From a virus, in the IMG/VR virus record IMGVR_UViG_3300044984_001899, positions 1 through 29,872 of that record: 29,872 nucleotides of DNA; one strand, written 5' to 3'. This document shows positions 9,636 to 29,872 of the stretch, one piece after another. The notes under the pieces are model-generated. The model was not told the origin of the DNA. It made no database searches and was given only the letters and a program-made list of their open reading frames with translations. Made by a program: the position numbers and the translations under genes. Position 1 is the stretch's first letter; each line of letters starts with the position of its first letter.

Positions 9636-10235
9636 ATGTCGAAGTTATTTTCAACCATCATTAGCGGTACACCAACAACCGTTACTGTTAATTACACTAG
9701 CTTAACTGGAACCGTACCTACGTGGAATCAGAACACCACTGGAACTGCTGCAGGATTAAGCACAACATTAACGGTAACTGGTGGTGGAACTGGAGCTACA
9801 ACATTAACCGGACTATTAAAAGGTAATGGAACTAGCGCAGTCACTACTGTGTCAGCCCCAACTGGTGCTATTGTTGGAACAACAGATACGCAGTCATTAA
9901 CCAATAAAACCGTTACCGCAGTTGCAAATTTTGAAACAAAAATTGCATTATCATCTGGTGCTATTGATCTTGCCACTGGTAATTTATTTACCATCACTAT
10001 ATCATCAAACACCACTTTTACTATCAGTAATACACCCACCACTGGAACTGTTACCACGTTCGTATTAGAAATTACAAACGGTGGGGCTGGTACGATAACT
10101 TGGTGGACAGGGTTAAAATGGGTAGGTGGAACCGCACCAACGTTAACAACAGCAGGTCGCGACTCAGTTGGCTTCTACTCACACGACGGTGGCTCCACCT
10201 GGACTGGACTAGTTATGGGCAAGGATATTAAATGA
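9636..10235 (+). CDS. Tail-fibre adaptor-like protein, copy 2
   Basis: 199 residues, paralogous over most of its length to the gene at 4137: GGGTGATTLTGLLKGNGTSA, GAIVGTTDTQSLTNKTV, FVLEITNGGAGTITWWTGLK, WVGGTAPTLTTAGRD, ending MGKDIK. The N-terminal 35 residues (MSKLFSTIISGTPTTVTVNY) are unrelated to copy 1, as expected if the N-terminus docks at a different site. The upstream Shine-Dalgarno is weak (TGGATAAT), and the gene follows the mini-ORF region. The stop overlaps the giant LamG gene start (ATGA), and AAGGA at 10221-10225 in the GKD codons lies 6 bases before that ATG. The inferred role is a connector for the 13-module adhesin. Confidence 0.8.
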   Translation: MSKLFSTIISGTPTTVTVNYTSLTGTVPTWNQNTTGTAAGLSTTLTVTGGGTGATTLTGLLKGNGTSAVTTVSAPTGAIVGTTDTQSLTNKTVTAVANFETKIALSSGAIDLATGNLFTITISSNTTFTISNTPTTGTVTTFVLEITNGGAGTITWWTGLKWVGGTAPTLTTAGRDSVGFYSHDGGSTWTGLVMGKDIK

Positions 10236-13200
10236 GTGTACGTGCATTAGTACCAGCAAGTGGTAATAGCGCTACTAGTAGCGACCCGTACTGGTCCAAT
10301 GTTTCATTATTAGTAAATGGTGAAAACACATCATATGACGCTAATTGGTCAAACGTATCATTACTATTAAATGGTGATAGTAAGACCAGTGATTTTGATC
10401 AATATTGGGGAAATGTATCACTATTACTAACTGGAGATGATTTTGTTGATGCGTCAAACGTCACAAATACTATTACCAACACAGGTTCAGTTACAGTAAA
10501 CACTGGCACTAAAGTATATGGAACTGGATCATATTATTTTAATGGTAGTAATTACTTAATTACTAATGCTAATGTAGCAGGTCTCAACTTAGGATCAGGT
10601 AGTTTTACGGTCGAAATGTGGCTTCGATTTGATTCATTTACGCAATACGATAGACCGTTTTCAATTGGATACGGTACTAGTAGTGGAAACTATTTATATA
10701 CAGAAGGCTTAGTATTTGAAGCGCTATCAACTGGATCATCATCAGTTGTATCAGCTATATGTATGGGTAATGGTGCAAGTGTAAGTGTAAGCACGCCAAC
10801 ACTATCAGCTAATACATGGTATCATATAGCGTTTGTTAGATCTGGTAACAGTGTGTGTGTGTTTACTAACGGGATACCTAGTGCAACAGCATCCTTCTCC
10901 CAAGCGGTGAATTTTGACTCAACCACACGGTTAACGTTAGGTGCATGGTACGTAACAGGGTGGAATTCGTATAATAGGCTATTTAAAGGTTATATTGATA
11001 ATGTACGAGTTACTAAAGGTGTAGCTAGATACTGGCCCGCATTCACTCCACCTACTAGTGCATTACCAGCGAATAGTACAGATCCATATTATAGTAGTGT
11101 AGCGCTATTAATTTCTGGAGATGGTGCAAACGGCTCGACCACTATTACAGATTCAAGTAGTAGTCCTGTTGCTATTACCGTTAACGGTAATGCTCAAATT
11201 AGTACTGCTCAGAAGAAGTACGGTACTGGGGCTATTATGTTTGATGGATCTGGCGATTACTTAACAATTTCAAATAGTACTACATTTGCATTAGGTACAA
11301 ACGACTTTACTATTGAACTATGGGTATATCCAACTACTTTAAATGCGTATGCTGGTATATTGAGTTCTGCTGCAAATACTAGCCCGTACTGGACATATTT
11401 TACGGGTGCATGGCAGATAAATTTTGGAGCATCATCGAGCGTTGTGGGATTTGCAGTAAGTACGAGTCCAGGATCATACTGGGCAAGCACTGAAACACCC
11501 GCAATACCACTAAATCAATGGAATCATATTGCAGTAACCAGGTCTGGACTGGTTATTAGAAAATATTTAAACGGTGTGTTAAGCACAACCGATACTATGC
11601 CTGGAAATTACACATTTGCAAGTGATGGTACCAGTGTGGTTGGTAAGCACGATATACGTGGAGGTATGGACTTCACTGGTTACATGGATGATATACGTAT
11701 AACCAAAGGTGTTGTTAGATATACCGCTAACTTTACACCGAGCTCATGCCCAGTAAATTCAATTTTAGATAAGTCAGCTAGTCCACTCACATTAACTGTG
11801 TATAATGCAGTGCAACTAGCTGCAATGGCAAAATACGGTAATGCTAGCATAAGTTTTAATGGTAGTAATACAGCAATATCGTTTGCTCAAGCCAAAACAG
11901 TAACAGGTACTGAAGATTATACCGTGGAATCGTGGGTTTACTTAACCTCAACCACTGGCTCTCCGGCTATTATTGGAAACGCCAACGATAACGGGTTCTT
12001 TTTTGGATTTAACACTACGTACAACGTTAGTGGTACATCAAACGGTTTGAGAGTAGGTCGAGCCAACATTATCGATTGTGAATACGTGCCATATCAATTT
12101 TTAGCTAATACATGGTACCATGTAGCTGTTACTAGAACAGCTAGCACTATACGTTTCTTTATCAATGGTGTATTACAAACGACAAGTGGTACTGGTACCG
12201 CCACATACTCGTATCCAACTACTGGTACTACTCCATACATCGGACAGTACGGTAATGCTATTGGATATCTAAACGGATATCTTGATGATCTACGTATAAC
12301 AAAAGGTGCCGCTAGATATACCAGTAATTTTACCCCTCCTAGCTCTGCTCACCCTATTCTTTCAATAGTAGATAGATCTCTAAACACATTACCTGCAACT
12401 TTGACCGGTAACGCTCAATTAACCGCAGCGGTAAAGAAGTACGGTAACTATTCATTAGCGTTTGATGGTGATACTGATGCAGTATCATTTGGACCATCAC
12501 AGCTATTAGCATTTGGTACAAGTGATTTTACAATTGAATGTTGGTACTATCACGCTGGAAAATCCACCAGCTACCCTGCGATATATGCAAATGCGCCAAG
12601 TTGGACTACAAATACTATAACACTTAACGCGTGTCATGATCTTGCTTCAACGGTATTTTCCGTATCGCTGTATAATGCAAACTCGTCAACCTTGTCGTTA
12701 GCAGGTACAACTACAGTAGCTGTAAATACCTGGTACCATGTTGCCTTAGTTAGAAGTGACGTCAACATCAGATTATTTGTTAACGGTGTACTAGAGTCGA
12801 CGCTAGTATTTTCCGGATCGGTTGATAACGGTACATCGATGCCGTGTTATATCGGTTACGATCTTGCAAACAGCACGTCACTAAACGGTTATGTAGATGA
12901 TTTTCGTATTACACAAGGTGTAGCACGATATAAAAGCAATTTTACACCACCTACCACCACATTCCTAACAAACACTGATGCAACTACCGACCCATATTGG
13001 GATAAAGTTACATTACTATTAGATGGAGAATCAACAGAGGTCGATTCTTATTTTGGTAATGTCAGCTTATTATTAAAATGTGATGGTGCTAATGGTGCAA
13101 CAACATTTACCGATCTATCAAATAATCATGCAACAGTTACAGTTAATGGTAGTGCTCAGGTATCCACTAGTACTAAGAAATACGGTACAGGTAGCTTATA

Positions 13201-16200
13201 TTTGCCTAGTACTGGATCGAACTACTTATCGTTAGCTGATAGTACTGCGTTTAATTTAGCTGGCGGTCCGTATACGATTGAGTGTTGGATATACCCAACC
13301 GGAGATTATTCAAATTATAATACTATTATAGCTAAACGGGTATTAGGTGGAGGTACAACCGCTTGGGAATTATATTTGCGCATCAGTACCGGTGTTTTAT
13401 CATTCTATAATGGTGCCAATTACGAGTCTACTATTACCCCAACTGCAAACACTTGGAGTCATGTAGCTGGTGTTTATAACGGTACATATATAAATTTATT
13501 TTTAAATGGTGTTAATGTTTATTCAGCTGCAGTATCAAACGTTGACCAATCAGCATCAATATATATTGGTACATTTACTACTTATAGTGAACAATTTAAA
13601 GGTTATATTGATGATGTGCGGGTAACAAAAGGTGTGGCGAGATATCCAGTACCTTTTACACTAGCGGCAGAATTACCATCTACTTTGAACGATGATATAT
13701 CTTATTCGAACGTGAGTTTATTGCTGTTAGGTAATGGTACTAATGGATCAACAACAATAACTGATTCAAGTAGCACACCAAAAACAGTTAGCGTTTTTGG
13801 AAATACACAAATTAGCACATCAACAAAAAAATACGGTACCGGTTCTATATTTTTTGATGGTAGTGGAGATTATTTAACAGTACCGTCGAGTACTGACATG
13901 ATACTCACCGGTGTTGATTTTACAATGGAATGCTGGATATATCCAACCCGCGCTGCAGGAACTGGATCAATGTCTGGTTCAGGCCTTATTCAATCTATTA
14001 TTACTCAAGGTGATGGTTGGTGGACAGGTGGATTACAAGGTAACTTTTTATGGCATATTAATAATACAGGTATTCAAGTATCAGCTATTTCGTCTGGAGC
14101 TGTCGGGTTATCCGCATCATTTACGATGTCGCTAAACACATGGACGCATATTGCAGTTACCAGAGTTGGTACTACGATGCACGGCTATGTAAATGGTACA
14201 TTAGTTGGAACACAAAAGGGTTGTACTGACTTTGGCAGCTCAACGTCGTGGACCAATAATATTGGGCTAGGTTACTTTGGTGATTCAAAAGTTGCCAACT
14301 ATTTCCAGGGTTATATCGATGATTTGCGTATAACAAAAGGGGTGGTAAGATACACCGCTAATTTTACACCACCCACCGCTACATTACCAGTGGTATCAAT
14401 TAACGATACATCCACTAATGGACTAATGTTGATGTCATCCGGTGGTGTAGGTATTGATTCAAATACTAAAAAAGTTGGCACTGGCTCGTTATCATTTAAT
14501 GGAACATCGAGCTACACGTACTATCCAGGAAATACATCTATATTTAATATGGGTAGTTTAAACTGGACTGTTGAAGCTTGGGTATATTTAAAAGCAATGC
14601 CCACCAGTGATGCATGGCCTACTAACTGGAGTAGCCATATGGTCGTACTAGGAGTAGGGTCTGTTAATGCTGCTGACGGCTTCAATTGTATTATTGGACA
14701 AACTAAATTACTATGTCATAGTAACGATGTGCAGTATGCTGGAACAGCTCACGGAATGGTAATTAATACATGGTACCACCTTGCGTTTGTTAGATATTCT
14801 AATACATTATTATTTTTTGTTAATGGTGTTGCCACCGGCACCGTTGCTTTTTCAGGTGCAATCGGTGTTGGTACTAATACTTATTTTGGTACTGAAACTG
14901 GCCAGGGCGCATATTTTAATGGGTATATGGATAATTTACGTGTGACGAAAGGTGTTGCACGATATCTAACTACATTCACACCACCTACTTCAGCATTTCC
15001 AACTAAATTAGGTCTAACATCCGATCCGTATATTAGTAACGTTAGTTTATTATTAACCGCAGATGTTGCTGCGGTTGATGCTAACTGGTCAAATGTAACC
15101 CTACTACTAAGTGGTGACACATTAACAGACTCATCAAATAATCGTGCAACTATAACAGCAAGTGGTAATGCTAGAATCACTGCTACTGTAAGAAAATACG
15201 GTGAAGGGTCGATATACTTCGATGGTGTGGGTGATTACTTGATATCACCATCAAACACGTTATTTCAACTTGGTACCGGGGATTTTACAATTGAAATGTG
15301 GGTAAACCAACGCACTTCGAAAGATTGTGTTTATTTTGAAATTAGGGATGATGTCGCTGGTGCAAACTGCATTGTTGTTGGGTGCGGTGTAGCTAATTAT
15401 GTATATGCTTGGAGTGCGAATACATATATTATAACCAGCTCTACGGCAATTACACTGAATACTTGGAACCATGTTGCTTGCGTTCGTAAAGGATCTACAC
15501 TAACACTATATTTAAATGGTGCAGCTGTTGGTACAGCTACATTTACAACTAATGTTTCAGTTACTAATGTTACTATTGCCGCTCCAATAGATCACCGTGA
15601 CACTACAGGCTCGTGGCAATTTAATGGATACCTAGATGATCTACGTATAACAAAAGGTGTCGCTAGATATACTTCAACATTTACCCCCCCAACTACAGCA
15701 CTACCAACTAGCAGTATGTCAATCACAGGTGATGCAAATTGGTCTAGTGTATCATTATTACTTGATGGTGAGACGACTACACTTGGGGACTCTAGTTGGT
15801 CTAGTGTATCGTTAAGATTAACAGGTGATGATTTGTTAGATAAATCACCTACACCTAAAACATTGACAGTGGTAGGTAGCGTGTCTGTTTCAACTAGTAT
15901 CAAGAAGTATGGTACTGGTAGTTATTATTTTCCAAATAATGGTGACACCAACACTCACGGATCTTACTTGCGTGGAGATGCTAGTGAAGCCTATAACTTT
16001 GGTACAGGTGCATTTACTGTAGAAGGTTGGGTGTATATTACAGGTCAGTCGACGTTTGGTGGTGATGGTGCTACTAGGATAGGTTATGCATTAGCAGCGT
16101 ATCGGGTGCCCGGTGGTGATCAAGGATGGATATTTATAATCGGTAATAATGGCTCATCATTATCAATGGCATACAGCCCATCATCGAACATATATTACGG

Positions 16201-18988
16201 TACTTCAACGTTTACGTGTACTATACCCTTAAATTCGTGGCATCATGTTGCAGTAAGTGGGTCCGGTGCATCTATGACGTTTTTTGTGGACGGTGTAAGT
16301 ATCGGAACCGGTGCAATGTCTGGAACCACAAACTTAGCGTGTAATGCATCCGGTAACTACTTAGGTATTGGTGGTTACTATTATGGTAACAACTATGATT
16401 GGCCAATGGTTGGTTATATAGATGATGTTAGAATTACTAAAGGTGTTGCTAGATATACCGCTAATTTTACACCACCTACTAGTGCACTACCAACTTCAGG
16501 TGGCGGTGCAATACTAGATAGATCACCATATAATCTTACAGTAACTAATACCGGATCTGTTTCAATAGATGCCAACACTAAAAAGTTTGGTGCAAGTTGT
16601 ATGGCGTTTAGTGGTAGTAATTATTTGACGGCAAACGCAGGTTCGTTAGTTGCAATGGGTACCGGTGATTATACTGTAGAGTTCTGGTTTTACCAAACAT
16701 CTGTACCTGGTAATTCTATGCAAATGTTTGATACTAGAAACGCTTACCTAAACGGTATTATTGTAGCTAACGGCACCAATCGAGCACCTTATTTTTATTC
16801 TGGAAATACATATGTAATATCATCAGTAATCACTAATTTAAATCAGTGGTACCATATTGCTGCTGTTAGATCCGGTACAACTATGACAATGTACTTAAAC
16901 GGAGTAAATGTTGGTAGCGCCACTTCAACCTATAATATAGTCGGAACTAATTGCTACATTGGTCAGTCTTATGATTTATATCAAGCTACATTTGGTTACA
17001 TTGACGACCTACGTGTAACAAAGGGTGTGGCCAGATATACCGCTAATTTTACTCCACCTACAGCTGCACTACCACTACCAACTGGTTCAGAATCTGGTGA
17101 CGCATTATGGCAAAGTGTATCATTATTAATCAACGCAGATGGAATACCAACAGATCCATACTGGGATAAGGTAGCATTCATATTAAGTGGTGATACTGCA
17201 TCTGACAGCTCTACGAATCATATTGCTATAACAAATAATAACGTTACACTAAGCACGACAACTAAAAAATACAACTCAGGTTCACTTGCATTTACCGGAA
17301 CAGGTGTAACAAAATATCTATCACCTCCGGCAAGTAATCTCGATTTATCAACAGGTAACTTTACTATTGATTTCTGGGTAAATTTTAATTCGTTTGGAAC
17401 AGATCGTAAATATATCGCCACGACTATTTCTGGTGGGTATTGGCAATACGTGCATGATGTAAGTTTTGGTGCAAGTCTTAGAGTTACCGGTTATTCAGCA
17501 ATAGTAAATCAGGGTAGTAATGCAGGTTGGACAACCGGGGTCTGGTACCATGTTGCGTTTGTTAGAAATGGGTCAACATTTACCATCTTTAGAGATGGTG
17601 TATCTATTGCAACCGGGACTAGTTCAGCTGCACTTGGTGTAAGTTCTGCAATATACATCGGAGGTTACGATAACAACACAACATTAGATGCGTATATTGC
17701 AGATTTTAGAGCTACTAAAGGTGTTGCAAGATACACAGCTAACTTCACTCCACCTACGGCAGCATTATCACCAACACTTTTAGATAAGTCAACTAATATG
17801 CTAGGTGTAGCACCATATGGTGATGTAACATGCACATCAATCAATCAAGTAAAATACGGTATCGGTAGTATATATTTTGATGGTAGTGGTGATTACGTAT
17901 CTATACCATACACTACTACATATTTTGATTGGTGGACTACTGATTATACATTAGAATGTTGGGTGTATCCTATATCGCTAGCTAATTTTGAGTACTTCCA
18001 TACAACGTACAGCATTCATATACCTAATATGATTGGTAATATGAGTACATCTACGGATATAAATTATTGGTCATTTGGTCCAGTTGCATCAGGTGCTATT
18101 GCATTATATTACTATAACGGATCAGTAGTAACTCCAATCGCATCCACGCTAACAATTAACCCAAACGCATGGTCTCATATTGCACTAACCAAAACTAGTA
18201 GTGGATTTCAATTATGGGTTAACGGGGTAGGCAATGGCTATACTGCAATATCCGGAACACCACAATCTAATGCAGGTTATCCATTATCGATGGGACAATA
18301 CTTAACTTCGACTGCATTTGGATATATCGATGATTTAAGAATAACTAAAGGTGCCGCTAGATACACATCAACATTCACACCACCATCATCTGCACTACCA
18401 GCACTATCAATTTCTGATAGCGCACTAGTACCAACTACAGTAACATCATATGGTAATGCAGCATTGAACAGCAGTAATAAAAAATATGGTACTAATTGCA
18501 TGTATTTCGACGGTTCTGGTGATTATATTACGACACCTTGGGCTGTAATGCCAACAGGCACTACTGACTTCACAATTGAGTTTTGGAAATACACGATAAC
18601 TACAAGAACGGGTGGGATTCTTGGGTTTAGGGCTAGTGGATCAGATAATTTTCAGGTGTATGAAGGGTGGCCAACTGCAGGTGAGTATTTATTATTAGAT
18701 GATACAACATTACAAGTCGGTATTAGTAGAACTGTACCGTTAAATACGTGGGAACACTTAGCCTGGGTAAGATCCGGCACAAAATTCTATTTCTTTATTA
18801 ACGGATCATTACAAAAAACATCAACTAGTAGTGCCAGTGTGACAAAATCATACTCAGCATGGTATCTAGGTGACAGACTATATTCAGCTGCTGCCGACTT
18901 TAATGGTTATATTGATGAATTACGTATAACAAAGGGTGTTGCAAGGTATACGTCTGATTTTGTCCCACAACAACTACTAACTAAATAG
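10232..18988 (+). CDS. Giant LamG-repeat adhesin, 13 modules
   Basis: 2918 residues, one uninterrupted frame starting at an ATGA overlap. After MSVRALVPASG come three short copies of a 'YW.NVSLLLNG' strand (residues 20-65), then 13 LamG modules. Closing motifs (GYIDD.R.TKGVARY) lie near residues 253, 483, 681, 886, 1124, 1360, 1564, 1799, 2061, 2256, 2488, 2697 and 2890. Modules are joined either by short linkers of the ILDKS/IVDRS type or by long linkers with doubled NVSLLL strands, so they group into clusters. The last module ends abruptly (FVPQQLLTK) without the usual TPP tail. Size and repetition indicate a long flexible fibre or multivalent glycan adhesin. A chaperone-like gene follows 12 bases later. 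A C7 tract lies at 15684-15690 at the end of module 8. Linkers are less similar to those of the other two LamG genes than those two are to each other. Confidence 0.9.
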   Translation: MSVRALVPASGNSATSSDPYWSNVSLLVNGENTSYDANWSNVSLLLNGDSKTSDFDQYWGNVSLLLTGDDFVDASNVTNTITNTGSVTVNTGTKVYGTGSYYFNGSNYLITNANVAGLNLGSGSFTVEMWLRFDSFTQYDRPFSIGYGTSSGNYLYTEGLVFEALSTGSSSVVSAICMGNGASVSVSTPTLSANTWYHIAFVRSGNSVCVFTNGIPSATASFSQAVNFDSTTRLTLGAWYVTGWNSYNRLFKGYIDNVRVTKGVARYWPAFTPPTSALPANSTDPYYSSVALLISGDGANGSTTITDSSSSPVAITVNGNAQISTAQKKYGTGAIMFDGSGDYLTISNSTTFALGTNDFTIELWVYPTTLNAYAGILSSAANTSPYWTYFTGAWQINFGASSSVVGFAVSTSPGSYWASTETPAIPLNQWNHIAVTRSGLVIRKYLNGVLSTTDTMPGNYTFASDGTSVVGKHDIRGGMDFTGYMDDIRITKGVVRYTANFTPSSCPVNSILDKSASPLTLTVYNAVQLAAMAKYGNASISFNGSNTAISFAQAKTVTGTEDYTVESWVYLTSTTGSPAIIGNANDNGFFFGFNTTYNVSGTSNGLRVGRANIIDCEYVPYQFLANTWYHVAVTRTASTIRFFINGVLQTTSGTGTATYSYPTTGTTPYIGQYGNAIGYLNGYLDDLRITKGAARYTSNFTPPSSAHPILSIVDRSLNTLPATLTGNAQLTAAVKKYGNYSLAFDGDTDAVSFGPSQLLAFGTSDFTIECWYYHAGKSTSYPAIYANAPSWTTNTITLNACHDLASTVFSVSLYNANSSTLSLAGTTTVAVNTWYHVALVRSDVNIRLFVNGVLESTLVFSGSVDNGTSMPCYIGYDLANSTSLNGYVDDFRITQGVARYKSNFTPPTTTFLTNTDATTDPYWDKVTLLLDGESTEVDSYFGNVSLLLKCDGANGATTFTDLSNNHATVTVNGSAQVSTSTKKYGTGSLYLPSTGSNYLSLADSTAFNLAGGPYTIECWIYPTGDYSNYNTIIAKRVLGGGTTAWELYLRISTGVLSFYNGANYESTITPTANTWSHVAGVYNGTYINLFLNGVNVYSAAVSNVDQSASIYIGTFTTYSEQFKGYIDDVRVTKGVARYPVPFTLAAELPSTLNDDISYSNVSLLLLGNGTNGSTTITDSSSTPKTVSVFGNTQISTSTKKYGTGSIFFDGSGDYLTVPSSTDMILTGVDFTMECWIYPTRAAGTGSMSGSGLIQSIITQGDGWWTGGLQGNFLWHINNTGIQVSAISSGAVGLSASFTMSLNTWTHIAVTRVGTTMHGYVNGTLVGTQKGCTDFGSSTSWTNNIGLGYFGDSKVANYFQGYIDDLRITKGVVRYTANFTPPTATLPVVSINDTSTNGLMLMSSGGVGIDSNTKKVGTGSLSFNGTSSYTYYPGNTSIFNMGSLNWTVEAWVYLKAMPTSDAWPTNWSSHMVVLGVGSVNAADGFNCIIGQTKLLCHSNDVQYAGTAHGMVINTWYHLAFVRYSNTLLFFVNGVATGTVAFSGAIGVGTNTYFGTETGQGAYFNGYMDNLRVTKGVARYLTTFTPPTSAFPTKLGLTSDPYISNVSLLLTADVAAVDANWSNVTLLLSGDTLTDSSNNRATITASGNARITATVRKYGEGSIYFDGVGDYLISPSNTLFQLGTGDFTIEMWVNQRTSKDCVYFEIRDDVAGANCIVVGCGVANYVYAWSANTYIITSSTAITLNTWNHVACVRKGSTLTLYLNGAAVGTATFTTNVSVTNVTIAAPIDHRDTTGSWQFNGYLDDLRITKGVARYTSTFTPPTTALPTSSMSITGDANWSSVSLLLDGETTTLGDSSWSSVSLRLTGDDLLDKSPTPKTLTVVGSVSVSTSIKKYGTGSYYFPNNGDTNTHGSYLRGDASEAYNFGTGAFTVEGWVYITGQSTFGGDGATRIGYALAAYRVPGGDQGWIFIIGNNGSSLSMAYSPSSNIYYGTSTFTCTIPLNSWHHVAVSGSGASMTFFVDGVSIGTGAMSGTTNLACNASGNYLGIGGYYYGNNYDWPMVGYIDDVRITKGVARYTANFTPPTSALPTSGGGAILDRSPYNLTVTNTGSVSIDANTKKFGASCMAFSGSNYLTANAGSLVAMGTGDYTVEFWFYQTSVPGNSMQMFDTRNAYLNGIIVANGTNRAPYFYSGNTYVISSVITNLNQWYHIAAVRSGTTMTMYLNGVNVGSATSTYNIVGTNCYIGQSYDLYQATFGYIDDLRVTKGVARYTANFTPPTAALPLPTGSESGDALWQSVSLLINADGIPTDPYWDKVAFILSGDTASDSSTNHIAITNNNVTLSTTTKKYNSGSLAFTGTGVTKYLSPPASNLDLSTGNFTIDFWVNFNSFGTDRKYIATTISGGYWQYVHDVSFGASLRVTGYSAIVNQGSNAGWTTGVWYHVAFVRNGSTFTIFRDGVSIATGTSSAALGVSSAIYIGGYDNNTTLDAYIADFRATKGVARYTANFTPPTAALSPTLLDKSTNMLGVAPYGDVTCTSINQVKYGIGSIYFDGSGDYVSIPYTTTYFDWWTTDYTLECWVYPISLANFEYFHTTYSIHIPNMIGNMSTSTDINYWSFGPVASGAIALYYYNGSVVTPIASTLTINPNAWSHIALTKTSSGFQLWVNGVGNGYTAISGTPQSNAGYPLSMGQYLTSTAFGYIDDLRITKGAARYTSTFTPPSSALPALSISDSALVPTTVTSYGNAALNSSNKKYGTNCMYFDGSGDYITTPWAVMPTGTTDFTIEFWKYTITTRTGGILGFRASGSDNFQVYEGWPTAGEYLLLDDTTLQVGISRTVPLNTWEHLAWVRSGTKFYFFINGSLQKTSTSSASVTKSYSAWYLGDRLYSAAADFNGYIDELRITKGVARYTSDFVPQQLLTK

Positions 18989-19000
18989 CGGAGCATTTAA

Positions 19001-19444
19001 ATGGATATTGCGATTGTTGAAAACAATCAAGTAACTAAACTTGGTGACTATAAAAAGTTATTTCCCAACGTATCGTTTGCATCATCTGGGCCAGATTCAT
19101 CATTTTTACAAGATAACTCAGCACATCCGGTAGCGGTGTGGCGTGACTATGATAAAGACAATCAAAAACTAACACCAGTTTACCCGTATTACGAAGATGG
19201 TGTAGTGTATACTGTTGCAGTAATAGATAAAACAGATGATGATCGTGCGTATGATGCAGAAATTGCAGCTTCTAGTATTAGATCTACTAGAAATCAGTTA
19301 TTATCTGCATCAGATTGGACACAAGTACTAGATGCACCAGTGAATCAGGAACAATGGGCAGCTTACAGGCAAGCGCTTCGGGACATTACATTAGAAATAG
19401 GTTTTCCACAAGGTGTTACATGGCCTGAAACACCTAATAACTAA
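19001..19444 (+). CDS. Tail assembly chaperone-like protein, copy 2
   Basis: 147 residues, ATG at 19001 with GCGGAG 7 bases upstream. It starts MDIAIVENNQVTKLGDYKKL, parallel to copy 1 (MEIAIVKDDQIIEIGHYKKI), and carries the C-terminal family signature R..QLLSASDWTQVLD, WAAYRQALRDIT, GFPQGVTWPE. It sits 12 bases after the 13-module LamG gene, matching the placement of copy 1 after its LamG gene. Copies 1 and 2 are more alike in the N-terminal half than either is to copy 3, which follows a beta-propeller gene instead. This fits an N-terminal part that recognises the adhesin and a C-terminal part that does a common job, which is inference. Confidence 0.85.
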   Translation: MDIAIVENNQVTKLGDYKKLFPNVSFASSGPDSSFLQDNSAHPVAVWRDYDKDNQKLTPVYPYYEDGVVYTVAVIDKTDDDRAYDAEIAASSIRSTRNQLLSASDWTQVLDAPVNQEQWAAYRQALRDITLEIGFPQGVTWPETPNN

Positions 19445-20962: not shown

Positions 20963-21769
20963 ATGCCTACTGTAATTGACAATAAGACCTCAAACTACGC
21001 TATACCGTTACCTACGGTATCAAATCGATTAGTAGATGATATCGCTAGACTTTCTAGTGCATTATTTACTATTGATCTTGTTTTAGCGTTAAAACAAGAT
21101 CAGTCTACCGTTGGCGCTGTTAATGGGGTAGCCACATTAGATAGCAGTGGTAGGTTAACATCGACTCAACTACCAGCATTGACAGGTGATGTTACGTTAA
21201 CCGCTGGATCCACGGTATTAACACTATCAAACACTGGGGTCACTGCAGGTACATACAACTCTGTAACGGTTGATACTAAAGGTCGTGTAACATCGGGGAC
21301 AACGGCGTCTTCATCGACTCTTCAACCTACCGGAATTATAACAACAAATTATACTGCATCTGTATACCAGCTTATCAAAGCAAGTACTGTTGATGGTATT
21401 ATTACTATTATATTGCCGTCTACTCCGATAGACGGTGCAATGATAGGTATTGTTGATGTTGGAAATCATTGTGGATTTAATGCAGTAACGATTCAATCCG
21501 GTGCAGGTGATACGATTAATTTTACATCATCGCAGGTATTAAATAATAATGGTATGTGCATTACATATGTGTACATAGCCACTTCTACCAATTGGCAGAT
21601 ATATAGCACCTCATTAGCAACTAGCGGTTCGACAAGTGGGTTTAATGGAGTTGAAACAAGATTAGATGGGGGAGCTCCATACATGGATGCAAGTACAACG
21701 ATTATAATTGATGGTGGATCACCGATTACGGTATTAGGTGTTCAAAATATTGATGGAGGTAGTGAATAA
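20963..21769 (+). CDS. Tail-fibre protein
   Basis: 268 residues. The N-terminus contains NYAIPLPTVSNRLVDDIARL, a pattern I recognise from fibres of large myoviruses, where it probably attaches to the tail. Residues 50-115 hold VNGVATLDSSGRLTSTQLPA and the common fibre motif AGTYNSVTVDTKGRVTSGT. Residues about 125-215 form a domain (LPSTPIDGAMIGIVDVG ... TNWQIYSTSL) homologous to the one duplicated in tandem in the next gene. The C-terminal 40 residues contain DGGAP, DGGSP and DGGSE. The Shine-Dalgarno is weak. The stop shares a base with the next start (TAATG), so the two products are likely made in coordinated amounts. Confidence 0.8.
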   Translation: MPTVIDNKTSNYAIPLPTVSNRLVDDIARLSSALFTIDLVLALKQDQSTVGAVNGVATLDSSGRLTSTQLPALTGDVTLTAGSTVLTLSNTGVTAGTYNSVTVDTKGRVTSGTTASSSTLQPTGIITTNYTASVYQLIKASTVDGIITIILPSTPIDGAMIGIVDVGNHCGFNAVTIQSGAGDTINFTSSQVLNNNGMCITYVYIATSTNWQIYSTSLATSGSTSGFNGVETRLDGGAPYMDASTTIIIDGGSPITVLGVQNIDGGSE

Positions 21770-24363
21770 TGACAACGAGAATACAATTTAGACGCGGATT
21801 AGCGTCAAATTGGGCGATAACAAATCCTACATTATATCAAGGTGAATTAGGGCTTGAGTTAGATACTAATAATATAAAGATAGGTGATGGGGTAGCTGCC
21901 TGGAACTCGTTGAATTATAGTAAATTTTTACCTGTACAAACAAATAACAGTGGTAAATATTTAACTACTAATGGTACAGATGCATCGTGGGCATCAACCA
22001 CTGGAACTGGCACATTAGTTCTATCTACATCACCAACATTAACTACACCGATATTAGGCACACCCACATCCGGAGACTTAAGTAATTGTACTAACACTGT
22101 TGGATACGGATTAAAATCAGCTACAACAATAGTGAGTGTAAGTGCCGCAACAGCACCATCTGCAGGTCAAGTGTTAGTCGCTACCAATTCAACGACAGCA
22201 CAATGGCAAACACCTGCAGTATCGTTACCTACTCAGACTGGAAACAGTGGTAAGTACTTAACAACAGATGGATCGAGTGCATCATGGGCATCTACCACCG
22301 GTACTGGAACATTAGTATTAGCAACATCACCTACCATTGATGCGCCAAGAATCACTACAACCGTACTAGTTGGACCAAGTACTGCAGCAAACCTAACACG
22401 CTTTCCAAACGCTGTAGCTGTTGTATCTAGTACGGTAGCTGGTATACAACATAATGAATCACATAATATTGGATTAATTGCGGAGGGAACTGCAAATGCT
22501 GCTGATTCTACTATTTACGGTATCGGTGTTTATGGTGTTGGTTATACTAACGCTGGAACTCGTTCTGGAGGAATAGTTGGTGAAGGACATGTATCAAACA
22601 CTACAGATGGTGGTAGTGCGATAGGTGTACGGGGATACTCAAACGATACTCATGCAGGTGGTACGAATATCGGGCTATATGCTGATGCTGGTGGTAGTGC
22701 GGTTAATAATTACGCGTTATACATGAACAGTGGTGATATTACTAATATTGCCGCACAAACATGGAATTTAGGTGGTAACTTAACCTTTAGTGGGGCATAC
22801 ACGGTCTCCGTGCCAACATTGAGCTTAACTAACGCACTTAGTGTGGTTAGCGGTGGGACTGGTACAAGCTCGTTAGCGCTTAATAATATTTTATTAGGTA
22901 ATGGTACTAACGCTGTGCAAGCGGTACCACCGGGCACATCTGGTAATATATTAACCAGTAACGGTAACACGTGGGTTAGCGCTACACCCACTGCAACATT
23001 ACCGTTGCAAACCGGTAATGCTGGTAGGTTTTTAGCTACTGATGGAACTGGAACATCATGGCAAGCTGTATCTAGTGGGTTAGTATCGACACCAGTGAAA
23101 ACATCAGCTTATACAGCTGCAGTATATGAGTTAGTATGTACCAATACAACATCTGGGTCATTTACAGTTACGCTACCAGCATCACCGATAGATGGTGCAC
23201 AAGTAGGTGTTATAGATATTGCAAAAACATTTGGATCGTTTCCATTAACATTAGCTCCGGGTGTAGGTGCAACTATTGAAGGTGATAGTACTGCAATATT
23301 ATTAGATATTAATGGTGCTTATGTTGCGTTTGTATATACGGCATCCCTAACAAATTGGCGGTTATTATCTATACCATTTGGAGGTAATGGTGTGATTAGT
23401 AACGGCGGCTTATTACCAACTACTGTTAAAATTGCAAATTACTCTGCATCCAGTAATGAGTTAGTACGTACCAATACAACATCTGGGTCATTTACAGTTA
23501 CATTACCTGCATCACCAATTGATGGTGCTCAAATTGGTGTTATCGATATAGCTAAAACATTTGGATCGTATCCATTAACATTAGCACCAGGTGTTGGTGC
23601 AACTATTGAAGGTGATAGTACTGCAATGTTATTAGATATTAATGGTGCTTATGTTGCGTTTGTATATACGGCATCCCTAACAAATTGGCGGTTATTATCT
23701 ATACCATTTGGAGGTAATGGTGTGATTAGTAACGGTACAGTAACTAATGTAGCAGCGCTAACAATAACAACAACCGGTACAGATTTAACTTCTACAGTAG
23801 CTACTGGAACTACAACTCCAGTTATTACTATTAATGTTCCAAATGCAAGTGCAACTGCTAGAGGGGTTTTAACTTCTGCTGATTGGACAACTTTTAACTC
23901 CAAACAAGCAGCAATTACTTTTGGTACTGATGTTTTAACCTTTATCGGAACACCTTCAAGTGCAAATTTATTAGCCGCTATTACGGATGAAACTGGAACT
24001 GGTAATCTTGTATTTAATACAAATTCATCTTTAATTACGCCTACTATAACTTCTGGACGAGAGGTAAAAATTGTATTAACGGCAAATAATATAGATGTTG
24101 CAACAGGAAGTTGTTTTACTAAAACAATTACAGCAGCTACTACATTTACATTAAGTAATGCAGGAGCTAGTGGATTACTTTGCTCCTTTATACTAGACTT
24201 GACAAATGGGGGGGCTTTTACAATTACATGGTGGACTGGAGTTAAATGGGTAGGTGGTACATTACCTACTTTGACTGCATCTGGCAGAGATAGCTTAGGC
24301 TTCTTCACGCATGATGGTGGAACTACTTGGACAGGTATTATTCTCGGCAAGGATTTAAAGTAA
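21769..24363 (+). CDS. Mosaic tail fibre with tropism-determinant-like N-terminus and adaptor C-terminus
   Basis: 864 residues. Residues 1-55 (TTRIQFRRGLASNW ... GELGLELDTNNIKIGDGVAAWNSL) match the N-terminal domain of the phage major tropism determinant, a trimerising/attachment domain. Then come two SGKYLTT.G..ASWASTTGTG repeats (about 60-195); a domain shared with the gene at 27361 (about 195-345; IGLIAEGTANAADST, GVRGYSNDTHAGG); LTSNG/NGGTG repeats (345-440); two tandem 110-residue domains (about 437-655); TSTVATGTTTPVI ... GVLTSADWTTFNSKQ (655-705); and the adaptor domain ending LGKDLK. The C-terminal part from about base 23735 is more AT-rich than the rest, indicating a recombination joint inside the gene. 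AAGGA at 24349-24353 and TAATG couple it to the beta-propeller gene. Confidence 0.85.
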   Translation: MTTRIQFRRGLASNWAITNPTLYQGELGLELDTNNIKIGDGVAAWNSLNYSKFLPVQTNNSGKYLTTNGTDASWASTTGTGTLVLSTSPTLTTPILGTPTSGDLSNCTNTVGYGLKSATTIVSVSAATAPSAGQVLVATNSTTAQWQTPAVSLPTQTGNSGKYLTTDGSSASWASTTGTGTLVLATSPTIDAPRITTTVLVGPSTAANLTRFPNAVAVVSSTVAGIQHNESHNIGLIAEGTANAADSTIYGIGVYGVGYTNAGTRSGGIVGEGHVSNTTDGGSAIGVRGYSNDTHAGGTNIGLYADAGGSAVNNYALYMNSGDITNIAAQTWNLGGNLTFSGAYTVSVPTLSLTNALSVVSGGTGTSSLALNNILLGNGTNAVQAVPPGTSGNILTSNGNTWVSATPTATLPLQTGNAGRFLATDGTGTSWQAVSSGLVSTPVKTSAYTAAVYELVCTNTTSGSFTVTLPASPIDGAQVGVIDIAKTFGSFPLTLAPGVGATIEGDSTAILLDINGAYVAFVYTASLTNWRLLSIPFGGNGVISNGGLLPTTVKIANYSASSNELVRTNTTSGSFTVTLPASPIDGAQIGVIDIAKTFGSYPLTLAPGVGATIEGDSTAMLLDINGAYVAFVYTASLTNWRLLSIPFGGNGVISNGTVTNVAALTITTTGTDLTSTVATGTTTPVITINVPNASATARGVLTSADWTTFNSKQAAITFGTDVLTFIGTPSSANLLAAITDETGTGNLVFNTNSSLITPTITSGREVKIVLTANNIDVATGSCFTKTITAATTFTLSNAGASGLLCSFILDLTNGGAFTITWWTGVKWVGGTLPTLTASGRDSLGFFTHDGGTTWTGIILGKDLK
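22462..22514 (+). repeat. 53-base direct repeat with 27781-27833
   Basis: Identical by eye to 27781-27833 in the S74 fibre gene and embedded in a longer homologous block (about 22340-23000 versus 27680-28320) in which flanking sequence differs at many silent sites. It is a possible recombination or gene-conversion tract. Confidence 0.8.
23077..23735 (+). repeat. 330-base tandem duplication inside the mosaic fibre gene
   Basis: Two units offset by 330 bases (about 23077-23406 and 23407-23735), each encoding one 110-residue domain (TNTTSGSFTVTLPASPIDGA ... YVAFVYTASLTNWRLLSIPF). The 3' 135 bases (23271-23405 and 23601-23735) differ at only one position by eye (ATATT/ATGTT), while the 5' parts differ more, suggesting recent duplication or gene conversion of the 3' part. 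Confidence 0.9.
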
Positions 24364-26864
24364 TGAGTATTCGACCTTTAATAAAAAATATAGAAGCAGG
24401 AATTCCTTATAATAGCTGGATTGCAAACTCCTATAATACGGTTGGGTATGCTTATGATAGTTATCCTACAGATTTTTATGTAGATGGAAATGGTGAAGTA
24501 GTTGTTGTTAGTAATATCGTAAATACTGTTACTACAGATATTGCAGTCGCTGTTGTACGATATAGTTCTAGTGGTGCAGTTATTTGGTCTAAAAAAATTA
24601 CCGATGATATAACTCCCGAAAACTCACGAGATGCTAAGATTGTAGCTGGGGAATCTGGGAATTTATATATTGCATATATTACATATAGTAATGTTCGAAA
24701 TAATTATGATATTAACTTACTAAAGATAGATTCAACTGGAGCTACTATTTGGATTAAAGGATTTGACGTAGAATCTGACATTGTGGCTGCTATGTCTTTT
24801 AAAAATTCAAAAGTTTATATTCTATCTCGAAGTGGTTATAATAGTAATATAATTATCTATGACGTGAATGGCACTATAGTAGAAAAATTATCAATAGCTT
24901 CTAACCAACTACAAAACTTTTTTGTTACCAGTTCTGATGAAATTTATGTTTGTGGTGGGTGGTCTGCTAATCCAGGCACCACTCCTACCGATGGTTATAT
25001 TTTTAAAATAAATGCAAATAGAACTACAAATTCTCATTTTACCTATTATCCAAGTACGGGTAATACGGTAGCGGAGTATATTACAGATATTACAATAGAT
25101 AGTCAAGGTAATATCTATTTTGTTCTACGAGCAACAACTAGTGTAGTATATAAGTTAAATAGTTCCTTTACAGTTTTATGGAAGAAAAACATAACTTCTA
25201 GAACTGCGGATAAAGTTTTAGTAGATTCTCTCTTTAACGTATATGTAACTTCTACACAATACGCAGGAACTGGCACAACTTATACAGTATATGTAGATAA
25301 GTTTAACGCGGCAGGAACCTCTACTGGAGAATTTATTGTAAGTTCTAATGATAGTTCCGCTAATTTAAATACAACACCACCTTTAGTAAGTTTAGATTCT
25401 ACACTACTTAGTATTTATATACTAACTTCAATTAAAGGTGTAAACTTATTTAAATATCCTTTAGATGGCAGTACTTTAACTGGAACTGAATATGTTGCTA
25501 ACCCTAATTTACCTACTAATACGACTTTGACTAGTGCTGCTGGTACGGCTTTAGCAGTTAGTCCATTGACAACGGAAGCGTACTACTGGACAATGTATGA
25601 TTGGGTTAGTTCTGGAACTAGTAGTCATGGTCGCGGAATTTTCTCTGCTAATTATATTTATATAAATCCTACAAGAGGTTATATTGTAGGAAAATTAATA
25701 AAATTAGCTAAAAATTTATCTTCAACATTAGAAATGCTTCACCCAGAAGGCTTCGTTTATAATTCCATGAATGCTACTGCATCTGTCCTGGCATTAGACT
25801 CTTCTGAGAATATTTATCAGACTATATACGATGCAGCGTATTCCAGATATTGTCTTTTTAAAAGGTCTTCTGTAGATGGCTCTATTTCAATGGCTTATGC
25901 TTATTCGGGATTAACTGAAAATATTTTAAACACTAAAGTTGATAGTTCTGGTAATATTTATATTCTAACTAAGACTTGGCTTTTAAAAGTAAATTCAGCA
26001 GGCACTCCTCAATGGTTAAAAAGATTTACAGGTGGCGGTGGTCCTTATACTTTAAACCATATATCTATGGCCTTAGACTCTACTGGTAATATTTATATTC
26101 TAGTTCAAGCATATAATAGTACTACAAATAGAGGTATAGGTGTTATTAAAGTAAATTCTTCTGGAATTATCGCTTGGGGGACTCGTTGGACTAATTATAA
26201 TAGTTATACCGAAGGCGATATTGTTTTAGATTCTAGCGGTAATATCTATTGCGCTATCCAGTTATATACAACCCCAGGGTCTGGTGCATTACTTTGTTTT
26301 AACAATTCTGGGGTTTTGCAGTGGTCTACTAATTTAAAAAGCACAGCCGACATATCTTGTACAGCTATTACTATAAAAGATACTAACTTATATGTAGGGA
26401 CAAGTACTGGTGTTTTATACAAATATACTACGGCAGGTGTTAAAGTTGCTAGAGTTGTGGCTTGTAATAACATAGAGATACAGCAAATTCATGTAGATGG
26501 GACAAAAATATACTTAGTATTTCAAAATGGTGTAATGACTATGGATGATGTTTTTTCTATAGCTGGAACATATTATTTATATGCTAATGGCAGTACTGCC
26601 CATAGCACTACAATAGGAACAACCTCGGTTACTTTATCTGAAGCTGCGCTTTCTCCAGCCGTCACAACAGCTTCACTTGCTACTTTGGCAACTGTTACAG
26701 GTACAACTCCAACAGCCACAGCACTTGTGACAACAGTAGTAGGAACTCCAGCAACTACTCCTCTTGTTTATACATATTTTAAAAAACCATTAACTGAGAT
26801 TACACCGCTACATACAATTAAAACTTTAACTCCTTATGTAAATAACCGTACTGTACGTTTTTAA
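24363..26864 (+). CDS. Beta-propeller repeat adhesin
   Basis: 833 residues from the ATG at 24363 (TAATG overlap); an earlier in-frame start at 24327 would lie inside the adaptor gene and is not used. The N-terminus MSIRPLIKN resembles those of the LamG adhesins, but the body is different: about 12-13 blade-like repeats of the SBBP/PQQ-like kind, 'DSSGNIYIL...LLKVNSAGTPQW', clearest near residues 525, 570 and 621 and recognisable from about 40 to 740, enough for two propellers. The last 95 residues are Thr/Ala-rich and end YVNNRTVRF. I infer a receptor-binding protein occupying the same slot as the LamG adhesins. Two 60-base samples (24481-24540, 25921-25980) contain 19 and 15 G+C, against 24 and 27 in samples of the 13-module LamG gene, so it is probably of foreign origin. 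Confidence 0.75.
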   Translation: MSIRPLIKNIEAGIPYNSWIANSYNTVGYAYDSYPTDFYVDGNGEVVVVSNIVNTVTTDIAVAVVRYSSSGAVIWSKKITDDITPENSRDAKIVAGESGNLYIAYITYSNVRNNYDINLLKIDSTGATIWIKGFDVESDIVAAMSFKNSKVYILSRSGYNSNIIIYDVNGTIVEKLSIASNQLQNFFVTSSDEIYVCGGWSANPGTTPTDGYIFKINANRTTNSHFTYYPSTGNTVAEYITDITIDSQGNIYFVLRATTSVVYKLNSSFTVLWKKNITSRTADKVLVDSLFNVYVTSTQYAGTGTTYTVYVDKFNAAGTSTGEFIVSSNDSSANLNTTPPLVSLDSTLLSIYILTSIKGVNLFKYPLDGSTLTGTEYVANPNLPTNTTLTSAAGTALAVSPLTTEAYYWTMYDWVSSGTSSHGRGIFSANYIYINPTRGYIVGKLIKLAKNLSSTLEMLHPEGFVYNSMNATASVLALDSSENIYQTIYDAAYSRYCLFKRSSVDGSISMAYAYSGLTENILNTKVDSSGNIYILTKTWLLKVNSAGTPQWLKRFTGGGGPYTLNHISMALDSTGNIYILVQAYNSTTNRGIGVIKVNSSGIIAWGTRWTNYNSYTEGDIVLDSSGNIYCAIQLYTTPGSGALLCFNNSGVLQWSTNLKSTADISCTAITIKDTNLYVGTSTGVLYKYTTAGVKVARVVACNNIEIQQIHVDGTKIYLVFQNGVMTMDDVFSIAGTYYLYANGSTAHSTTIGTTSVTLSEAALSPAVTTASLATLATVTGTTPTATALVTTVVGTPATTPLVYTYFKKPLTEITPLHTIKTLTPYVNNRTVRF

Positions 26865-26876
26865 TAGGTAAATAAT

Positions 26877-27320
26877 ATGCTATTAGCAAAAATAGAAAAT
26901 AATGTAGTTACTCAAGTTGATGACAGCTCTAAATTCTTTCCTAATACTTCTTTCCCAGTTACAGGAATTGATTTAACTTTATTACAAGAAAATTCATTAG
27001 TTGAAGTAGAAAGTTACCCAGAGCTTGATTCAGCTACTCAAAAAATAGAACCAACCGCTCCCTATTTACTAGATGGAAGAGTTTACAGTTATAAAATTGT
27101 AGCTAAAACGCAAGAAGACTATGATTTAGAGCGTGGTAGAGTTGCTTATGGTGTTCGTTTTAAAAGAAATGAATTACTTAAAGCCTCTGATTGGACTCAA
27201 ATAGCTGATGCCACTGTTGATAAACAGGCTTGGTTGATATATAGGCAAGCATTACGAGACGTTACTGCACAAGCAGGTTTTCCATTTGATATTATATGGC
27301 CAGATACTCCAACTGCATAA
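26877..27320 (+). CDS. Tail assembly chaperone-like protein, copy 3
   Basis: 147 residues, the same length as copies 1 and 2. The C-terminal signature is intact: R.NELLKASDWTQIAD, YRQALRDVTAQAGFP, IIWPDTP. The N-terminal 80 residues (MLLAKIENNVVTQVDDSSKF) are the most divergent of the three. It sits 12 bases after the beta-propeller gene and shares its AT-rich character, so the two probably arrived together. The Shine-Dalgarno is poor (AGGTAA at close spacing). Confidence 0.85.
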   Translation: MLLAKIENNVVTQVDDSSKFFPNTSFPVTGIDLTLLQENSLVEVESYPELDSATQKIEPTAPYLLDGRVYSYKIVAKTQEDYDLERGRVAYGVRFKRNELLKASDWTQIADATVDKQAWLIYRQALRDVTAQAGFPFDIIWPDTPTA

Positions 27321-27322
27321 AC

Positions 27323-27330
27323 AATAAATA
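27323..27330 (+). promoter_or_regulatory. Candidate late promoter AATAAATA
   Basis: AATAAATA followed by TATG, in the 40-base gap before the S74 fibre at 27361; 30 bases to the ATG. It differs from TATAAATA at the first base only. Confidence 0.4.
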
Positions 27331-27360
27331 TATGTTTTAGATGTAATTAAGGAATCACAC

Positions 27361-28860
27361 ATGACTGTAAGCTTGTCAACATTAGTAGGTGCAACATCTA
27401 TCGCAGGAACACTTACCGTATCCGGTGGTGGGACTGGTTCAACTACGCTTGTACTCAACAGCGTACTATTAGGCAATGGTTCATCAGCATTGCAATCAGT
27501 GGCTCCAGGTACGAGTGGTAACGTATTAACTAGCAATGGAACCACCTGGGTATCGGGAGCGGTACCATCTGCTAGTATAGGTATTAGTGTACCTACAGAT
27601 TTTTTAACCGTTACCAACTCACCGCTAACATCCAGTGGTACTATTGCATTATCACTAGCAACAAACCCATTATTACCAAAATTACTTATTGGTCCAACAG
27701 CCTCAGCAAACTACACGCGGTTTCCAAACACGTTAGCTGTTATATCTAGCACCAGTGCTGGAATACAACATAATGAACCACATAATATTGGATTAATTGC
27801 GGAGGGAACTGCAAATGCTGCTGATTCTACTATACATGGCGTTGGGGTTTATGGGGTTGGTTATACTAATGCTGGAACTCGTGCTGGAGGGGTAATAGGT
27901 GAAGGTCATGTATCTGCAACCGGGGATACTGGTAGTGCAATAGGAGTTCGTGGATATTCAAACGATACACATTCTGGTGGAATGAATATTGGGTTGTTTG
28001 CAGAAGCTAGTGGTAGTGCGACTAATAATTACGCACTATACATGAGTAGTGGAAACATTACTAATATTGCTGCACAGACATGGACCTTGGGTGGTAACTT
28101 AACATTTAGTGGAGCCTATACAGTAGCAGTACCAACACTAAGCTTAACTAACGCACTAACAGTTGCTAATGGTGGTACAGGAGCTGCAACGTTAGCTACT
28201 AATAATGTACTGCTGGGTAATGGTACGAGTGCACTACAGGTAGTTGCACCAAGTACTACTGGGAACGTATTAACCAGTAACGGGACTACTTGGATATCTT
28301 CCACCCCTACAGCACCTACAGCGCTAGGCACACCGGGTAGTGGTAATTTTAGCACTGGCACGTTTACATGGCCAACTTTTAATCAAAACACCACCGGTAC
28401 AGCTGCTTCGTTTACGAGCACCACTCAAAACTCACAATTCAACTCAATCGGTATCGGTACCGCAGCATCAGCAACCGCCGGTGAAATTAGAGCAACTAAT
28501 AACATTACTGCGTATTATTCAGATGAACGATTAAAAACTAATATTGTAAATATTTCAAACGCGTTAGAAAAAGTACTGCAATTGAATGGTGTTACATTTA
28601 ATGCAAACGATCTTGCAGCAACTTACGGGTATACTAATCAATCACAACAAGTTGGAGTTATAGCGCAACAAGTTGAGTTGATATTACCTCAAATCGTAGT
28701 ACCAGCTCCGTTTGATATTGGTCAAGATCTAGACGGTAATGAGTTCTCAATTAGCGGTGAGAATTATAAGACAGTTCAGTATGAAAAACTAGTACCGTTA
28801 CTAATTGAAGCAATTAAAGAACTAACAATTGAAGTTAATAAATTAAAAGGTGGTAAATAA
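27361..28860 (+). CDS. Tail fibre with canonical S74 chaperone
   Basis: 499 residues, TAAGGA 8 bases before the ATG. Residues 1-75 hold VSGGGTGSTTLVLNSVLLGN and GNVLTSNGTTWVS. About residues 103-320 are homologous to the middle of the gene at 21769 (IQHNEPHNIGLIAEGTANAA, GVGVYGVGYTNAGTRAGG, GVRGYSNDTHSGG, NNYALYMSSG). After a second set of LTSNGTTW repeats and ATAGEIRATNNI, the S74 intramolecular chaperone starts with SDERLKTNIVNI at residue 387, with VGVIAQQVELILPQIV and VQYEKLVPLLIEAIKEL further on, ending in a short coiled coil. Self-cleavage at S387/D388 after trimerisation is expected from the family. The stop overlaps the next start (TAATG). Confidence 0.9.
   Translation: MTVSLSTLVGATSIAGTLTVSGGGTGSTTLVLNSVLLGNGSSALQSVAPGTSGNVLTSNGTTWVSGAVPSASIGISVPTDFLTVTNSPLTSSGTIALSLATNPLLPKLLIGPTASANYTRFPNTLAVISSTSAGIQHNEPHNIGLIAEGTANAADSTIHGVGVYGVGYTNAGTRAGGVIGEGHVSATGDTGSAIGVRGYSNDTHSGGMNIGLFAEASGSATNNYALYMSSGNITNIAAQTWTLGGNLTFSGAYTVAVPTLSLTNALTVANGGTGAATLATNNVLLGNGTSALQVVAPSTTGNVLTSNGTTWISSTPTAPTALGTPGSGNFSTGTFTWPTFNQNTTGTAASFTSTTQNSQFNSIGIGTAASATAGEIRATNNITAYYSDERLKTNIVNISNALEKVLQLNGVTFNANDLAATYGYTNQSQQVGVIAQQVELILPQIVVPAPFDIGQDLDGNEFSISGENYKTVQYEKLVPLLIEAIKELTIEVNKLKGGK
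27781..27833 (+). repeat. 53-base direct repeat with 22462-22514
   Basis: Partner copy in the S74 fibre gene, encoding HNIGLIAEGTANAADSTI. Confidence 0.8.
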
Positions 28861-29846: not shown

Positions 29847-29847
29847 T

Positions 29848-29872
29848 ATGGCATTACCCACAGCAGGATCAG
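29848..29872 (+). CDS. Start of a tail-fibre-like gene, cut by window end
   Basis: ATG at 29848, one base after the preceding TAA, reading MALPTAGS and running off the window. The start MALPT[AS]G is typical of short fibre or tail proteins in T4-like environmental phages. Only eight codons are visible, so the call rests on this motif and on context. Confidence 0.5.

Follow-up and report, generated by a model that had tools for sequence, protein, structure and literature searches.

Among the closest described systems to the one considered here is the T2-type gp37-gp38 pair (phages S16 and PP01), in which, according to the available parts of the sources, a separate gene product caps the trimeric fibre and sets host range; gp38 attaches to the fibre by its N-terminus, and for PP01 gp38 to function on a T2 fibre, the T2 N-terminus was required (PMC12892980, PMC6851490). 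For Pam3 gp24-gp25 and Mu Tfa, the accessible sections describe a variable N-terminal domain that binds the fibre and a conserved C-terminal domain that serves in trimerisation and assembly (PMC9608196). Excerpts on Alteromonas phage A5/V22 present a tail fibre and its cognate chaperone as common to distant phages (PMC10579305), and those on cryoconite phages report that core genomes are almost identical while receptor-binding genes have been swapped, homing endonucleases being among the most frequent variable genes (PMC7468147). Fibre-gene mosaicism, separate fibre-tip adhesins, and chaperone co-transfer are already known. Here we analysed IMG/VR virus record IMGVR_UViG_3300044984_001899, a stretch of 29,872 bases containing tail-fibre genes (the window), focusing on the block at 23735-27320, in which the 3' end of a fibre/adaptor gene (f864) is followed by a beta-propeller adhesin and a chaperone (ch3).

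This block is probably one allele of an exchangeable receptor-binding cassette, the resident allele being a two-propeller adhesin. We give roughly even chances to the broader proposal of a widespread plug-and-socket standard, in which many phage lineages would share one fibre-tip knob and a ~12-residue plug bearing unrelated binding folds; the exchange unit would be the adhesin with the client-binding part of a split chaperone, the arms would be functional domains, and a homing endonuclease would sometimes be present as a possible driver of the swap. In the proposed mechanism, the conserved knob at the end of the fibre protein is the adaptor C-terminal domain; the adhesin gene follows with a 1- or 4-nucleotide (nt) overlap, and its first ~12 residues, conserved across folds, would dock on this knob. 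A two-domain chaperone comes next, its variable N-terminal part putatively handling its own adhesin and its conserved C-terminal part being the PF16778 domain. In co-infected cells, the two arms (adaptor C-terminus with plug to the left, C-terminal end of the chaperone to the right) would undergo homologous recombination and so move the adhesin together with the client-specific chaperone part, and a new surface specificity would thereby come with a folding factor that fits it. The features of the block and of the two comparable slots in the window are as follows.

21769..24363 (+): fibre/adaptor gene f864, 864 amino acids (aa), with an N-terminal Mtd_N domain, fibre modules, and an adaptor C-terminal domain ending in GKDLK
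23120..23735 (+): tandem duplicated fibre segment inside f864, just 5' of the left arm; copies 23120-23405 and 23451-23735, 286 bp, 94% identical
23733..24363 (+): left arm, the adaptor C-terminal 210 aa; DNA 74-79% identical with L101, L127, L334/L335, and L336
24353..27387 (no strand): low guanine-plus-cytosine (GC) segment, GC 0.333, found by likelihood segmentation at threshold 8 only
24363..24398 (+): plug position at the adhesin N-terminus; its sequence, MSIRPLIKNIEA, is atypical, departing from the consensus MSVRDIIMAAAG
24363..26864 (+): propeller adhesin, 833 aa, with two predicted beta-propellers at about residues 32-366 and 424-728
26877-27320 (+): chaperone ch3
26877..27155 (+): variable N-terminal two-thirds of ch3, which would travel with the adhesin
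27156..27320 (+): right arm, the ch3 C-terminal domain, PF16778 Phage_tail_APC
27361..28860 (+): next fibre gene f499, Peptidase_S74; from 28312 with 83% DNA identity to sister phages carrying another cassette
9636..19444 (+): second slot, with adaptor ad2 (9636-10235), the LamG13 adhesin (10232-18988, 2918 aa, the 13-module LamG gene; MSVRALVPASGN), and chaperone ch2
4137..9496 (+): third slot, with adaptor ad1 (4137-4760, +) followed by the LamG7 adhesin (4757-9496; MSSRVMLNASAG)

The exchange unit was delimited in all cross-contig pairs of the 67 chaperone-bearing closed slots (of 105 closed) whose adhesins are not more than 60% identical, the counts leaving out open-ended slots and slots without a chaperone. 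Both arms were present in 21 of the tested pairs. In 15 of these, left-hand similarity ended +5 to +54 nt into the adhesin and right-hand similarity began 150-166 nt before the chaperone stop, the adhesins between being unrelated in 14 pairs and 29% identical in one (L101/L127). L007 and L009 are 93% identical up to +54 nt of the adhesin, share no similarity thereafter, and are again 98.5% identical from -162 nt of the chaperone stop; L101 and L127 are 89.9% identical up to +28 nt, without similarity between, and 95.6% identical from -161 nt; L038 and L041 show 86% up to +5 nt and 97% from -159 nt. The 15 pairs include near-copies and perhaps represent four to six independent events. Since similarity stops early in the adhesin and resumes so close to the chaperone stop, the cargo comprises the adhesin and the N-terminal two-thirds of the chaperone; the chaperone gene is divided between a travelling N-terminal part and a PF16778 domain that serves as an arm, because the right breakpoints fall inside it. 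Among non-redundant slot pairs with adaptors at least 80% alike, 86 of 123 had no adhesin BLAST match. A first-pass annotation of the window had described 23735-27320 as a complete cassette imported by exchange between phages; the gene content it gave (adaptor 3' end, propeller at 24363-26864, ch3 at 26877-27320) is correct, but the interval consists of arms plus cargo, and in recently swapped pairs the moving part begins in the first ~18 adhesin codons and ends ~160 nt before the chaperone stop.

The chaperones agree with such a division. PF16778 is recognized in ch3 at residues 93-145 (75.2 bits, cut-off 26.6) and in ch2 (72.3 bits), and DNA identity of ch3 to seven relatives and paralogues is 56-61% in the N-terminal part and 64-67% in the C-terminal part, so that ch3 combines a variable N-terminal and a conserved C-terminal part. 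On a chaperone tree of 40 rows (37 of 77 chaperones, those with unclassified neighbours, were left out), adhesin class changed 4 times, compared with 13.8 after shuffling, and none of 200 shuffles gave so low a number. Chaperone type therefore clusters with adhesin type, which suggests specificity of the chaperone for its client; ch2 and ch1, the latter lying 3' of a LamG gene that the window start cuts, group with LamG chaperones.

Searched separately, the block and its flanks have different best relatives, as the first-pass annotation had expected of an exchanged cassette. On the right, 28312-29872 is 83% identical to L005, L006, and L163, whose corresponding slot is occupied by a LamG adhesin with a LamG-type chaperone; the L163 chaperone is 69% identical to ch1 and only 43% to ch3. 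From about 28325-28480 onward, the flank is 78-79% identical to L164, L165, L166, and L248; L164 has no such cassette in the slot, the end of f499 being fused to a long fibre. Sister phages identified through gene g328 gave six loci, with other slot contents wherever the contig extends that far. On the left, the nearest relatives of the arm are L101 (79%), L127 (76%), L336 (74%), and L334/L335 (74%), with similarity beginning at 23729-23740. In each of the five contigs sharing the left arm from ~23735, a propeller and a 150-aa chaperone come next, in keeping with the earlier claim that adaptor, propeller, and chaperone form a set; L334 and L335 are 99.98% copies, and the five therefore represent four distinct cases. 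Position 23735 is the end of the 286-bp tandem copy and also a homology edge with other phages, the shared DNA running to 24368-24383. Because a fibre module in wide use (L372-L392) makes up the first ~60 residues of the arm, this edge is a common module edge.

Within the block, the DNA of the window (23000-27700) resembles that of L336 only at 23729-24383 and 27160-27287 (74.2% each), and that of L334 at 23740-24368 (73.8%) and 27072-27283 (67.9%), the repeated fibre module giving further, weaker matches to the left of 23907. The propellers of the window and of its left-arm relatives share 24-26% aa identity, the best single tblastn match among the profile-scan loci being L336 (25.6% over 810 columns). 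A plain scan of viral contigs found no close propeller relatives, and 50,697 phage records gave one weak match (E 7e-4); a propeller profile found 80 loci, 14 of which also have the adaptor C-terminus. In bacterial genomes, 36 loci were found, mostly matching the generic first ~60 residues of the left arm. The knob is present in Undibacterium umbellatum, where contig L393:6001-7019, perhaps a prophage, encodes an adaptor knob and a plug-like gene (MLRNLIFAAAG).

The same figures bear on whether any exchange took place at this locus, since the arms might be conserved while the adhesin evolves in place too fast for DNA similarity to persist. Arms of the window only 74-79% alike to their nearest relatives, and propellers in every left-arm relative, as diverged as rapid evolution would leave them, fit such a course. 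We nevertheless regard it as unlikely: in L101/L127 and L007/L009, flanks 90-98% alike enclose DNA without similarity, the sister phage of the right flank holds another fold, LamG, in the slot, and the propeller alone is strongly anomalous in codon usage. Homology thus supports cassette exchange between phages, and the window's own allele may have been imported in this way.

Base composition, which the first-pass annotation had offered as direct support for exchange, is less informative. The block is AT-rich as stated (GC 0.342, against 0.388 in the rest), below all 20,149 non-overlapping positions of the same length (minimum 0.368). However, the compositional block does not start at 23735, where GC is 0.373 to the left and 0.375 to the right (600 bases each); the true left step is at 24353 (0.378 to 0.303), the start of the adhesin gene, and the predicted right step is present at 27320-27387 (0.337 to 0.422; 0.328 to 0.442). 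The drop in GC at third codon positions (GC3) lies earlier, at ~23009 (0.249 to 0.150). Likelihood segmentation at threshold 8 gave 1-24352 (0.390), 24353-27387 (0.333), 27388-28483 (0.448), and 28484-29872 (0.31); at thresholds 10 and 15 the break at 28483 alone remained, and at 20 none. As only that break outlasts the stricter thresholds, the GC step of the block is modest and the strongest break of the window lies elsewhere, the segment 28484-29872 falling in a DUF7936 gene whose conservation extends to sister phages. The earlier counts of G+C in 60-base samples (19 and 15 inside, 24 and 27 in the 13-module LamG gene) were single samples from broad ranges, with means of 20.5 (standard deviation (SD) 4.0, range 11-30) inside and 23.4 (SD 3.2, range 14-31) in the LamG gene. 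The different codon style claimed for the block is strong only in the propeller gene (z 10.3, conditioned on amino acids) and not for the adaptor 3' part (0.6) or ch3 (1.0); elsewhere, the conditioned z was 3.4 for the fibre segment 23008-23731, 3.6 for g0, and 3.3 for the 13-module LamG gene.

The AT-rich look could, moreover, reflect the amino-acid composition of the propeller, which is rich in N, T, S, Y, and I, and not its history. Its GC contrast to the flanks, -0.045, ranks 22 of 71 genes following such adaptors, the window contributing three (mean -0.027, SD 0.063), and GC at second codon positions is 0.450, against ~0.5 in LamG genes. On the other hand, GC3 is also low (0.176, against ~0.25 in LamG genes), and the codon anomaly persists after conditioning on amino acids, which weakens this explanation; we consider it slightly less probable than evolution in place. 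Since a GC contrast of this size is ordinary for the slot, composition is not direct support for exchange, and import would not be provable from composition alone.

The proposed plug was characterized in slots found with the adaptor as the query (adaptor loci being the best 80 of 239); with copies removed at 80% aa identity, 61 slots remained, the window included. The gene after the adaptor overlaps its stop by exactly 1 or 4 nt in 54 of the 61, as in the window, where the propeller ATG overlaps the adaptor stop (TAATG). Plug statistics were computed on 59 slots, without the two that hold an endonuclease, and one slot with a 42-aa next open reading frame (ORF) was dropped. Against 371 control N-termini taken from these loci, the plug scored above the 99th percentile in 53 of the 59. 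It is ~12 residues long, with a consensus of about MSVRDIIMAAAG, and information falls after residue ~17. Since the longest ORF near the adaptor stop was taken, some starts may be wrong; in L114 and L133, which do not pass the test, the motif can nevertheless be seen, shifted by one or two residues. What follows the plug is diverse: among 73 adhesin representatives, Pfam recognized DUF7483 in 23, Laminin_G_3 in 13, SBBP in 8, and FG-GAP_2 in 3, although some may match more than one family. The order fibre/adaptor, plug gene, chaperone is also found in two isolates, Limnohabitans phage DC31 (L253:5497-8444) and Roseobacter phage CRP-603; DC31 is a possible laboratory model.

Conserved first codons might instead be a translation signal, such as re-initiation after the overlapping stop, and not a docking peptide; with overlaps of 1 or 4 nt in 54 of the 61 slots, translational coupling is itself likely. 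However, conservation extends over 12 codons with a hydrophobic pattern and sits in codon positions 1 and 2 (0.61 and 0.85 bits), not 3 (0.19 bits), and the plug is therefore conserved at the protein level, which makes a mere signal improbable. Least probable by far is a built-in diversifier (a diversity-generating retroelement (DGR) or an invertible segment): f864 does start with an Mtd_N domain (E 1.1e-12), whose name comes from a DGR-diversified protein, but the swapped adhesins are non-homologous, not point-mutated, and the inverted repeats of at least 18 nt in 21700-28900 amount to one 19-nt overlapping palindrome inside the propeller gene, although no search aimed at a reverse transcriptase was made.

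In structure predictions, the last ~100 aa of the left arm form a beta-sandwich knob (predicted local distance difference test (pLDDT) ~95), the knob model reaching 86 overall and ~85-97 from residue 31 onward; over these ~100 aa, f864 is 62% identical to ad2 and 55% to ad1, and three slots of one design (ad1/LamG7, ad2/LamG13/ch2, and f864/propeller/ch3) are present in the window. The adaptor profile had no match among the sequences of solved structures at E up to 1. The propeller model comprises two all-beta units (mean pLDDT 62; below 50 in residues 1-32) and matches tandem-propeller proteins and CylK; a profile of five such propellers matches CylK (E 5e-40) and PknD. Profile and fold identify an SBBP-type beta-propeller, with a Pfam score just at the cut-off (20.5 of 20.5).

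Homing endonuclease genes occupy the junction in 2 of the 61 non-redundant slots. At L105:6270-6866, a GIY-YIG/NUMOD3 gene lies between the adaptor and the plug gene with a 4-nt overlap with each, and at L120:6033-6530, an HNH endonuclease gene is placed likewise with 1-nt overlaps; L124 and L125 have a next ORF of the same start and length as in L120. Such endonucleases could drive exchange.

Several observations weigh against an exchangeable cassette built on a common plug and knob. The plug of the window propeller is among the six that fail the test (score -9.6, the 91st percentile, against a control 99th percentile of 0.3); it retains MSIR and hydrophobic residues without AAAG. Two of the four isolates scored for the plug (PVP-SE1 and DT01) are without it, and in BUCT-ZZ01 the chaperone-like and propeller genes stand in the opposite order. 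A chaperone lies within 20 nt of the adhesin in only 30 of 53 closed slots, and none was found directly 3' of the LamG7 adhesin (4137..9496). By path, ch3 is nearest to four propeller chaperones, at an open fork. In 6 of the 21 pairs with both arms (L112 five times, and L095/L096), the adhesins are related (44-48%) and the right end falls 509-541 nt before the stop. For the window itself, no contig with almost identical flanks turned up to pair it with, and its arms are only 74-79% identical to the nearest. Fold matches of the knob to phage spike and connector domains (Pa223 spike, Z 7.9; CBA120 TSP4, 6.6; T4 gp9, 5.8) are all below 8, in the range of chance matches.

Three further observations concern the surroundings of the block. 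On either side of the propeller cassette lies a copy of a 600-bp module (22364-22964 and 27683-28283; 78% DNA identity); the two copies are direct repeats at a distance of 5.3 kb, and recombination between them could remove the cassette. Contig IMGVR_UViG_3300042894_003413 (L243) matches the window end (28004-29872) at 99.4% and extends rightward; it is probably the same phage. A search for tRNA genes as integration marks found none.

If the plug-and-socket proposal is true, one short peptide would predict receptor-binding genes in many uncultured phages, whatever their fold, and the anatomy of plug and arms would tell which chaperone part accompanies the adhesin. Homing endonucleases at such junctions may then have a role, and the long-standing question of how phages alter receptor specificity without losing assembly would be testable now.

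In the open-licence literature, we found neither the plug nor the knob described, nor any breakpoint within the chaperone, nothing joining beta-propeller, laminin G, tail fiber, and phage, and no mention of DUF7483. The available portions on A5/V22 treat whole modules and describe neither a plug-and-arms anatomy nor a breakpoint within the chaperone, and those on the cryoconite phages describe no adaptor/adhesin/chaperone unit or breakpoints. CylK is an enzyme, whereas the SBBP-type propeller protein of the window is a putative adhesin. S16 gp38, in the text available, combines a three-helix attachment domain bearing conserved tryptophans with a polyglycine sandwich, which differs from what is seen here: the aligned plug columns 1-12 hold no conserved tryptophan, the propeller sequence has predicted propellers instead of repeated polyglycine runs, and the bodies here are LamG, propellers, DUF7483, and others. 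A profile of the window chaperones searched against PDB sequences at E up to 1 gave 2kz6 as the only strong match, Pam3 gp25 not being among those reported. As far as the accessible sections on Pam3 go, the client there is the fibre itself, unlike the separate adhesin here; the domain split of Pam3 and Mu Tfa nevertheless matches the travelling and staying parts of the chaperone, and, as in T2-type gp38, a separate adhesin gene directly follows the fibre gene in the slots of the window.

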